Assembly: GCA_008501735.1 (NCBI GenBank)
Contig: QQUF01000056.1
Location: 53,091-117,090, forward strand
Source of the DNA: Calditrichota bacterium
GTDB taxonomy: Bacteria > CLD3
Length of the DNA: 64,000 nucleotides
Direction of reading: 5' to 3'
In this document: one piece after another, positions 3,209-52,588 of the stretch
Layout: each line of letters starts with the position of its first letter
Position numbering within the stretch: the stretch's first letter is position 1
Notes under the pieces: model-generated
Told to the model about the DNA's origin: nothing
Databases searched by the model: none
What the model saw: only the letters and a program-made list of their open reading frames with translations
Made by a program: the position numbers and the translations under genes

Positions 3209-3241
3209 AGACCTGAAAGGTTTTCAAAACCTTTCAGGTCT
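3209..3241 (+). repeat. Palindromic repeat / likely terminator after first narK
   Basis: Two perfect 16-base arms (AGACCTGAAAGGTTTT and its complement) flank one unpaired base, 7 nt after the narK stop and followed by a short T-run, so it can act as an intrinsic terminator or attenuator before the second transporter. A sister copy with one compensatory base-pair change lies at 52557-52588, which marks it as a dispersed element and not a private terminator. Confidence 0.85.
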
Positions 3242-37181: not shown

Positions 37182-37198
37182 AAGAATTTCGAATTTTG

Positions 37199-37229
37199 TA
37201 GAGAGCAAAATTTTTGTTCTCTATTTTTT
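37199..37229 (+). terminator. Terminator and palindrome after ruvA
   Basis: TAGAGAGCAAAA pairs with TTTTGTTCTCTA (one G-T pair) around a single T and is followed by six T residues. It covers the stop codon of the convergent gene. Its sequence is a variant of the 42-bp palindrome at 43306-43347. Confidence 0.85.
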
Positions 37230-43295: not shown

Positions 43296-43305
43296 AATTC
43301 CAAAA

Positions 43306-43347
43306 AAGGATTGTAGGGAACAAAAATTTTTGTTCCCTACAATCCTT
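43306..43347. repeat. 42-bp perfect palindrome
   Basis: AAGGATTGTAGGGAACAAAAA (43306-43326) is followed immediately by its exact complement (43327-43347). It lies 11 nt after the deacetylase stop and may terminate it in RNA, though no T-run follows. A variant lies at 37199-37223. The 389-nt gap 43296-43684 holds this and the minus-strand unit described next. Confidence 0.9.
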
Positions 43348-43363
43348 CCTTACAATCACAAAT

Positions 43364-43399
43364 AAAAAAACCTCTTCCGAATTTTCATTCAGAAGAGGT
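43364..43399 (-). terminator. Intrinsic terminator reading on the minus strand
   Basis: On the minus strand ACCTCTTC and GAAGAGGT pair, with an inner ATTC/GAAT extension past one mismatch, loop TTTC-like, then seven T residues. The T-run is on the minus-strand side only, so it ends a leftward transcript. The only candidate is the mini-gene at 43501-43554. Confidence 0.85.
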
Positions 43400-43412
43400 C
43401 TATTCAAAATTT

Positions 43413-43455
43413 GTTTCTTTAATGCAAAAGACTAATTCTGCATATTTAAAGAAAC
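43413..43455 (-). ncRNA. Stem-loop in the 3' part of the minus-strand mini transcript
   Basis: GTTTCTTTAA (43413-43422) is complementary to TTAAAGAAAC (43446-43455), and TGCA at 43423-43426 pairs with TGCA at 43439-43442 past a 3-nt bulge, leaving a 12-nt loop. It lies between the small ORF and the terminator and suggests a structured RNA. Confidence 0.55.
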
Positions 43456-43500
43456 GACTTGGTTATTAGCAAATTGTCATCACTAACAATAAAATTAAAT

Positions 43501-43554
43501 TTAGCTGTTAATGATTGGACGGCTAATGCACCAAGTTGATTTTTCACTATTCAA
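43501..43554 (-). CDS. Candidate micropeptide ORF (17 residues) with near-perfect Shine-Dalgarno
   Basis: The minus strand reads GGAGGTGAT, a nine-base complement of the usual 16S rRNA 3' end (43558-43566). A TTG follows at 43554, 7 nt after GGAGG. The frame encodes MNSEKSTWCISRPIINS and a TAA. No family was recognised. A second overlapping frame, from GTG at 43547 to a TAA ending at 43446, would give 33 residues (starting MKNQLGALAVQSLTAKF) but its GTG lies 14 nt from GGAGG. Most genes here have much weaker ribosome sites, which makes this one stand out. It is not proven to be translated; it could be a leader of a structured RNA. Confidence 0.5.
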   Translation of the reverse strand: MNSEKSTWCISRPIINS

Positions 43555-43600
43555 TGCATCACCTCCATTCGATTAAATTAAACTTACAATAATTACGATT

Positions 43601-43632
43601 TAAATGTAAATCGGAACAGGTTCAGAAGTCAA
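43601..43632 (-). promoter_or_regulatory. Promoter-like boxes for the minus-strand mini-gene
   Basis: On the minus strand TTG (43632-43630) and TACATTTA (43608-43601) are 21 nt apart. This fits a relaxed -33/-7 pair of the Bacteroidota type (TTTG ... TAnnTTTG, last base of the -7 box differs). It lies 34 nt upstream of the Shine-Dalgarno. Confidence 0.4.
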
Positions 43633-43684
43633 TGCAAAAAAAATATTTTTTTTGTAAGTTTATAAAAACTAAAAAGGAAATAAA

Positions 43685-44224
43685 ATGTTAGATAAAAATT
43701 CAACAGCTTTAGTAATTATTGACGTTCAAGAAAGGCTTATGAATGTCATTTTTGAAAAAGAAAAATTAATTCAAAATTTGGTAAAATTGATTGAAGGTGC
43801 TAAGGTTCTTGGACTCCCAATAATTTGGACAGAACAGTACCCAAAAGGGCTTGGGGAAACTATTCCTGAATTAAAGTCAATTTTAGAAGAAATTAAACCG
43901 ATTGAAAAAATCCATTTTAGCTGTTGTGGAGAACCCAATTTTAGATTCGAACTTGAAAAAGTAAGTGCTCATACTTTGCTCGTTGCAGGAATTGAATCTC
44001 ACGTTTGTGTTTACCAAACGGTTGCCGATTTAATCGACAGTAGTTTTCAAGTTGAAGTTGTTACAGACGCAATTTCTTCAAGAACTAAAGAAAGTCGCGA
44101 ACTTGGAATCAAGAAATGTAATGATTTAGGTGCTTCTTTAACCTCGGTTGAAATGTGTTTGTTTGAGCTTTTGGAACAAGCAGGAACTTTTGAGTTTAAA
44201 GCAATTTCAAAAATTGTTAAGTAA
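43685..44224 (+). CDS. Isochorismatase-like cysteine hydrolase
   Basis: 179 residues of the isochorismatase-like hydrolase fold (YcaC/nicotinamidase relatives). The likely triad is visible: D18 in VIIDVQERL, K79 near EKIHF, and the nucleophile Cys in GIESHVCVYQTV near 105-116. The true substrate is not predictable; amides or imides are usual. AAAAGGAAAT precedes the ATG at 43685. It converges with the minus-strand channel gene, only 4 nt apart, with no clear terminator between them. Confidence 0.88.
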   Translation: MLDKNSTALVIIDVQERLMNVIFEKEKLIQNLVKLIEGAKVLGLPIIWTEQYPKGLGETIPELKSILEEIKPIEKIHFSCCGEPNFRFELEKVSAHTLLVAGIESHVCVYQTVADLIDSSFQVEVVTDAISSRTKESRELGIKKCNDLGASLTSVEMCLFELLEQAGTFEFKAISKIVK

Positions 44225-44228
44225 AATA

Positions 44229-46160
44229 TTAAAAATAAGTTGTAAGAACGACTAACTCTAAATTCTTTTTAAGTTCTAATTTCTCATCTTTTGGTGGGTT
44301 TAAAAATAATTTTTGATGTTTTGAATCTTGGTAATAAATACCTAAAAGAATGTCACCTTTTGAGAAAATCTTTTTTTGTAAGGCATTGAAAGTTAATTCT
44401 TTTTCTTTGATAGAATATGTCTTTGGACTTTTGAAGTAAATTTCTGCTCCACCAACTGTAAAAAGTTCGTCATAAATTTGGCTAATTTCCCTCTTTAAAG
44501 AAATTTGTGCAATCATATGACTGACAATTGCAGGTGTAAAAAGAGCTTCTCCTATTTCATCTTGAATAATTTTTTCGTTCTCTTTGTCAAATAACTCAAC
44601 CAAAACGTCAGGATTTAGATTCTCTTCTTTAAGTATTTTTTGTAAAACCAAATAGCCTAAAATAGTTCTCGCATCAGAAGCTTGGTGCGTTTCAAGCCTA
44701 TCACTTCCAACTAAGACAATATTGTCGTAATTATTTTTTATTGCTTTCTTGACTTCATATGGTGAAGTAAAATCGCCGATGTTATTTGTAAATTTAATGT
44801 TTTCAGTCAAGACATTAAATTTTTGTAACTGAGCTTGCCTCACGTCTATTGGCACTAATGATAAAACATCGATTTCAAAATTTTCATTTGCGTAAGAGTC
44901 GAATTCTTGAATTATCAACGGCACTCTATGATTCCAACCTAAGAACAAAATCCTTTTATTAATTACTTCGTGAAAAGGTTTTATTTCAAAATTAGGTTTT
45001 TCGGATTTAGAATCTGCATTTTTAATAAATTTTGCATTCTCCAAAGACTCCGAAATCATTATTATTTTATCGTCTTTGTGAATTTTAAGTTCGTCAGTTG
45101 GGTTAAGGATAGTTTGAGTTTCTTCTCCTTCATTTCGGACAACACCAATAGCAATACCTTTAGGAAAAATATCAATTAGCTCATAAAAATTTTTTCCTTC
45201 GAATTTTTTAAATTCGGCAAGGAAAATGTTATTGTCTTTAGTATCAGTAAGTTCAGTGTAAACAGTAGAAAGTCCTCTGTGCCTTACATTTTGAGCAATT
45301 AGCCTTGTAATAATTTCATCACTTGTGAGAACTTCAATTTCGCCTTCATAAGTGTCTTTTGCAATTTCGTAAAGTCTTGTGTCAAAAAGTTCCAAAACTA
45401 CATAAGGTAGTTTTTTTGCACCTTTATCTTTTGAATTATTCATAATTGAAAGCAAAATTTTTATTCCTCTTGCATCAATTACGTCAGATTTTCCAATTGA
45501 AAATTCATCGCCTGTAATTATGATTACACTCGCATTTTTGAAATCGACTCTTTCTAAACTTTCGATGTTCAGAGGATTCCCTGTTCGGAAGGTAATTTGC
45601 CAAGGGTTCCATTTTTTACCTAATTCTTGTTGTAATTCGTAGCTTAAATTTGAATCGACTTCTTCAGTGAGAATAACAATTTTTAGATTTCTTGAACCGA
45701 TTCGTTTCAAAAATCTTTTGGTTCTTTCGGTAGAACTGACAATCTCACTAACAATCGTTGGAGTGCGGTTAGTCCAGCCAAGAATTAAAATATGGTTTTT
45801 GTCAGTGATTGGAGTTAAACCACTTTCGAGTTTTTTAATTTTACGATTGAGCCACTGAGTCATAATCGCAATCAAAGCACCCATAAAAAAGACATAGCCA
45901 CAAATTGTTACAAAGGTAGAAATACTTCTTAAAATAATTCCTTGGTCATCGCCCAAATAACCTGGGTCAGTTAGACGCAAAAAAGCCCACCAAATTGCTT
46001 CTTCAAGTTTGAAAGCATCTGTAAATAAGAAAGCAGAGATTCCTGCTAAAATTGCAATTAATAAAATTAATGAGGCAATGAAAGCGAGTTGGTAAAACGC
46101 TCCTCTGACCAAAAGTCTTTCGAGTAGGAACTTAATTTTATTTATGAATCTGTCTAACAT
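44229..46160 (-). CDS. CASTOR/POLLUX-like ion channel with RCK-type domains
   Basis: 643 residues. The first about 110 residues hold two transmembrane helices and a pore-loop-like stretch (FLRLTDPGYLGDD near 62-74). The rest is a large cytosolic part with two TrkA/RCK-like nucleotide-binding folds, each opening HILILGWTNRTP (near 123) and RILFLGWNHRVP (near 410). This layout matches the CASTOR/POLLUX/DMI1 family, cation channels of plant nuclear membranes with bacterial relatives. It probably conducts K+ or Ca2+ under ligand control. It ends the minus-strand operon that begins with the M50 protease. Confidence 0.85.
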   Translation of the reverse strand: MLDRFINKIKFLLERLLVRGAFYQLAFIASLILLIAILAGISAFLFTDAFKLEEAIWWAFLRLTDPGYLGDDQGIILRSISTFVTICGYVFFMGALIAIMTQWLNRKIKKLESGLTPITDKNHILILGWTNRTPTIVSEIVSSTERTKRFLKRIGSRNLKIVILTEEVDSNLSYELQQELGKKWNPWQITFRTGNPLNIESLERVDFKNASVIIITGDEFSIGKSDVIDARGIKILLSIMNNSKDKGAKKLPYVVLELFDTRLYEIAKDTYEGEIEVLTSDEIITRLIAQNVRHRGLSTVYTELTDTKDNNIFLAEFKKFEGKNFYELIDIFPKGIAIGVVRNEGEETQTILNPTDELKIHKDDKIIMISESLENAKFIKNADSKSEKPNFEIKPFHEVINKRILFLGWNHRVPLIIQEFDSYANENFEIDVLSLVPIDVRQAQLQKFNVLTENIKFTNNIGDFTSPYEVKKAIKNNYDNIVLVGSDRLETHQASDARTILGYLVLQKILKEENLNPDVLVELFDKENEKIIQDEIGEALFTPAIVSHMIAQISLKREISQIYDELFTVGGAEIYFKSPKTYSIKEKELTFNALQKKIFSKGDILLGIYYQDSKHQKLFLNPPKDEKLELKKNLELVVLTTYF

Positions 46161-52556: not shown

Positions 52557-52588
52557 AGACCTGACAGGTTTTAAAACCTGTCAGGTCT
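52557..52588. repeat. 32-bp perfect palindrome (sister of 3209-3241)
   Basis: AGACCTGACAGGTTTT followed directly by its exact complement. It differs from the 3209 copy by one base in each arm, a compensatory A-T to C-G change. It may terminate the minus-strand gene 52593-54299. Confidence 0.85.

Follow-up and report, generated by a model that had tools for sequence, protein, structure and literature searches.

Locus organization

Does the minus strand of a short gap between two plus-strand genes hold a gene of its own and, if so, is its product a peptide or an RNA? The gap spans 389 nt (43296-43684) of the 64,000-nt window, by which we mean the whole stretch of DNA analysed, and is flanked as originally predicted by two plus-strand genes, whose products match Hist_deacetyl (PF00850) on one side and Isochorismatase (PF00857) on the other. 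Read along the minus strand, it presents in order TTGACT-N18-TACATT, the Shine-Dalgarno (SD)-like word GGAGGTGAT, two overlapping short open reading frames (ORFs), hairpins and a terminator (Table 1). All of the sequence elements named in the original prediction lie where it had placed them, but its inventory missed two further hairpins, the burial of the SD-like word and an adjacent palindrome.

This arrangement is real and non-random, and on sequence grounds a small RNA gene, rich in hairpins and equipped with its own promoter and terminator, very probably lies in the gap. On balance we favour, as the probable product, a structured small RNA of ∼230 nt that would be independently transcribed from the minus strand, most likely noncoding and lineage-specific. 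The original prediction had left three options: a micropeptide gene, a leader-type regulator or a small RNA of about this length. The leader-type regulator fails as an option, since there is no downstream minus-strand gene: past the terminator, the leftward strand enters the antisense side of the deacetylase gene. At 44224-44229, the isochorismatase gene converges with a gene for a Castor/Pollux-like channel, with 4 nt separating the two stop codons and no terminator seen between the genes.

Table 1. Features in and around the candidate RNA gene, in window coordinates (., no strand assigned).
Feature	Position	Strand	Remarks
Possible isochorismatase promoter TTCAGA-N17-TATTTT	43621..43649	+	Putative, weak match; overlaps the leftward promoter
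Promoter TTGACT-N18-TACATT	43603..43632	-	Of the motif type enriched in this genome; tRNA-Lys promoter alike
Predicted leftward RNA, ∼230 nt	43364..43596	-	MFE -69.4, z -7.3; 5' end placed from the -10 box
Hairpin 1, 5' arm = GGAGGTGATGCATTGAA	43516..43567	-	z -3.2
SD-like word GGAGGTGAT	43558..43566	-	Mostly paired, unpaired probability 0.02-0.22
17-codon TTG ORF	43501..43554	-	Unsupported as coding
33-codon GTG ORF	43446..43547	-	Unsupported as coding
Hairpin 2	43479..43515	-	z -4.4
Hairpin 3, 17 bp with 3-nt bulge	43413..43455	-	z -5.0
Intrinsic terminator: 15-bp stem, 4-nt loop, T run	43364..43401	-	From terminator scan; fold z -6.9
Perfect palindrome, GTAG-type REP element, core GTAGGGAACAAAAATTTTTGTTCCCTAC	43306..43347	.	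Adjacent to the RNA region, separate from it

Promoter and terminator

The promoter-like pair of the original prediction, a TTG spaced by N21 from a second box, is present on the minus strand as TTG(ACT) at 43632-43627 and TACATTTA at 43608-43601. Calibrated on an 857-kb sample of the same genome, the motif TTGAC-N17-19-TANNTT occurs in 15 of 239 upstream regions, as against 1.2 in shuffles, and its density is ∼14-fold higher upstream of genes (3.97 per 10 kb) than in coding DNA (0.285). The promoter of the tRNA-Lys gene is nearly identical (TTGACA...TACATTTG). Because the motif is enriched upstream and the tRNA-Lys box is alike, we take the leftward box TTGACT...TACATTTA to be of the genome's own promoter type. 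Intergenic strand outside the upstream class (58 kb) has only three copies, of which this is one; a second lies ahead of a gene whose leader is longer. An independent intergenic small RNA should have a promoter of its own, and one is found here.

Such a gene should also end at an intrinsic terminator that does not belong to a neighbouring gene. The predicted terminator with a T7 run on the minus side only was recovered at 43401-43368; it has no T run on the opposite strand and no leftward gene ahead of it except through the isochorismatase gene, so that it can be taken as the candidate's own, with read-through from the convergent minus-strand operon as a rival account. Across the intergenic regions of the 857 kb there are 60 strict hairpin-plus-T sites, 47 of them preceded by a gene on the same strand, while the remaining 13 are mostly partners of two-way terminators or REP palindromes. 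No other intergenic region in the sample combines, on one strand, a promoter and a terminator that are both unassigned. Elsewhere in the genome, a 672-nt gap contains at C48:79600-79780 a candidate small-protein gene, a short ORF that has a GGAGG site and, after it, a terminator with no other assignment.

Fold of the predicted RNA

Transcription would run from ∼43596 to ∼43364. With its 237 nt, the leftward strand reaches a fold energy of -69.4 kcal/mol, compared with -40.4 ± 4.0 kcal/mol in dinucleotide shuffles (z -7.3), and without the terminator it still stands apart from shuffles (z -4.3); each hairpin taken alone also beats them (Table 1). By fold energy the region ranks second of 121 intergenic regions in the 857 kb, behind a tandem tRNA pair; the ranked interval includes the adjacent palindrome, but the RNA stretch alone (43366-43570, -66.2 kcal/mol) would remain near the top. 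The plus strand of this stretch also folds well (z -4.0), since inverted repeats necessarily fold on both strands, and part of the fold signal is therefore strand-symmetric. The bulged stem-loop of the original prediction is present at 43455-43413, although with 17 bp and a 3-nt bulge rather than the 14 bp proposed.

Sequence gives good support to the predicted leftward transcription unit, because a genome-type promoter, a strand-specific terminator and an unusually stable fold coincide. The same evidence, with the terminator assigned to no neighbouring gene, favours the small-RNA option among those first proposed.

The Shine-Dalgarno-like word and the short ORFs

The nine-base match to the anti-SD sequence, GGAGGTGAT at 43566-43558, is confirmed and is unique in the window (shuffles give an expectation of 0.2); both ORFs are confirmed too, the 17-codon TTG frame (43554-43501), with its start 7 nt 3' of GGAGG, and the 33-codon GTG frame (43547-43446). 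We assumed the standard anti-SD sequence for duplex energies because 16S rRNA was not found in the assembly, from which it is probably missing. On that assumption the duplex here reaches -16.7 kcal/mol, while the best of 693 genes reaches -14.1 and the median is -5.1. The claim that most genes in the window have far weaker ribosome sites is borne out by that median, but here a strong SD is no mark of a gene start: GGAGGTGA has 17 copies in the 857 kb, none of which (0/17) is near any of the 693 gene starts, and none of the five copies of GGAGGTGAT is near a listed gene start. Moreover, in the predicted RNA GGAGGTGAT is sequestered inside an arm of hairpin 1. The argument from a 'perfect ribosome site' accordingly falls, and we read the word as a paired arm of hairpin 1 and not as a working ribosome site. 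In genomes like this one, a textbook SD match tells little about where genes start, unlike promoter and terminator signals derived from the genome's own sequence, which are informative.

Codon scores gave neither ORF a coding signal like that of the genome's genes: set against gene pieces, the 33-codon frame falls at the 4th percentile and the 17-codon frame at the 14th, both within the range of intergenic open frames. The 33-residue peptide had no match in Pfam, no membrane segment was evident, and a peptide search of the relatives returned just three weak, unconvincing matches (E 0.13-0.8). The two that were inspected (L010, L011) lie opposite longer open frames and were rejected. With poor codon scores, a hidden SD-like word of a kind never near gene starts and no convincing homologue, a micropeptide gene is not supported by the sequence.

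Search for relatives

Conservation of the SD, ORF or stem in relatives, whose absence the original prediction had named as counting against it, was so far not found in nine genomes of the phylum, only one of which (G001) is of the same family. DNA, peptide and covariance-model searches of these genomes, the last with two single-sequence models (R1 and R2), gave no homologue; a phage search gave no match, and a plasmid search nothing beyond one 40-nt match at E 0.1. As no homologue was found in any of these sets, there is no covariation to draw on. Rfam returned no family at gathering or relaxed thresholds, and weak PyrR and PyrG-leader scores were rejected because they are positioned over the terminator. 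Scanned in full with covariance models, part of G001 and the 857 kb of this genome gave false matches only. Of the best foreign covariance matches that were inspected, L098 proved to be a stem-loop just 3' of a hemB-like gene, and L080, in G001, an ordinary terminator. A DNA match (L003) lies inside a long coding frame of an unrelated genome, and a 23-nt match at C41 (L068), which appears to sit in a cyclase-like coding gene, was treated as chance.

The RNA region is single-copy in its own genome. Among named genomes, a scan with the flanking deacetylase reached only distant organisms, at 47% or less except for a single short fragment at 52%. G001 encodes a deacetylase 71% identical and an isochorismatase 73% identical to the flanking products, but on different contigs and among other neighbours; because the two genes are not adjacent there, the locus has no counterpart in G001, and the gap is a synteny breakpoint relative to that genome.

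Alternative explanations

The transcript might instead be a small mRNA for the 17- or 33-residue peptide, its ribosome site sequestered and translated only once hairpin 1 opens, in the style of a type I toxin or regulated micropeptide. The TTG placed 7 nt after GGAGG, a duplex (-16.7 kcal/mol) stronger than that of any of the 693 genes and the occurrence of another unassigned terminator (C48:79756) after a short ORF with a GGAGG site all speak for this, and the hidden SD-like stretch before a tiny ORF resembles that of SD-sequestered small mRNAs. Yet GGAGGTGA is never near gene starts, codon scores are like those of intergenic DNA, and the peptide has no homologue, no Pfam match for the 33-mer and no evident membrane segment; nor is it a typical toxin peptide, and no antisense partner was identified. 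We consider this reading unlikely. A good deal more doubtful is a new kind of structured RNA, in a sparsely sampled phylum, whose hairpin hides an unusually strong ribosome-binding sequence and exposes it under some condition; the locus would then be either a micropeptide gene that can be switched or an RNA that binds ribosomes.

About as improbable as the peptide mRNA is a read-through model, in which leftward transcripts from the minus-strand operon that finishes at 44229 would run antisense through the isochorismatase gene, in an excludon-like overlap, and end at this terminator. The stop codons there converge 4 nt apart, our scan shows no minus-strand terminator before 43401, and such overlaps are known in bacteria (PMC7154746); ∼830 nt of read-through would be required, however, and the promoter at 43632 and hairpins 1-3 would go unexplained. 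Less likely still is a chance or decayed cluster of palindromes in REP-rich intergenic DNA, with no RNA function. A REP palindrome does adjoin the region, which sits at the breakpoint relative to G001, lacks conservation and folds well on its plus strand too, but the REP stops at 43347, the RNA region occurs just once in the genome, and promoter and terminator stand in order on one strand.

Likeness to known RNAs and possible function

The predicted small RNA resembles intergenic bacterial small RNAs with their own promoter and intrinsic terminator in size, isolated position, promoter, hairpins and terminator; it differs in that no homologue or target was found and the genome has no detectable Hfq. 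It is similar in length to 6S RNA, but 6S RNA is one long rod with a central bubble, in contrast to the tandem hairpins here, and the locus has no Rfam match; Rfam searches also found no 6S RNA elsewhere in this genome. The locus is probably a new small RNA gene, ordinary in kind, with no relatives found among the genomes searched. It would add one probable small RNA gene to a phylum with very few sequenced species, in a genome without detectable Hfq.

The RNA might act by base pairing that does not depend on Hfq, using its linkers and its 5' end, which is AU-rich and single-stranded. The Hfq profile (PF17209) detected nothing in this genome, while the same profile found Hfq in 5 of 14 control genomes; with no Hfq found here, a mode that depends on it is unlikely. 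No target was found for the predicted RNA. Alternatively, it may act in cis: because the leftward promoter overlaps the possible isochorismatase promoter, competition between them would be a simple role of this kind.

Adjacent and dispersed palindromes

The palindrome beside the RNA region (43306-43347) recurs across the genome, at roughly 20 places, with arrays that start with GTAGGG lying beside a Y1_Tnp transposase gene (L007). Its GTAG tag matches REP elements with RAYT transposases (PMC2817692, PMC3733652), and a dispersed, GTAG-tagged palindrome together with a Y1 transposase in the genome identifies this neighbouring element alone as REP; unlike it, the RNA region is single-copy and not REP. 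A diverged GTAG palindrome copy at 37198-37224 is followed by a T run and possibly serves as a terminator. A second dispersed family of perfect palindromes, AGACCTGACAGGTTTTAAAACCTGTCAGGTCT, occurs at 52557-52588 and 3209-3241 in the window, and at ∼17 places in the genome overall.
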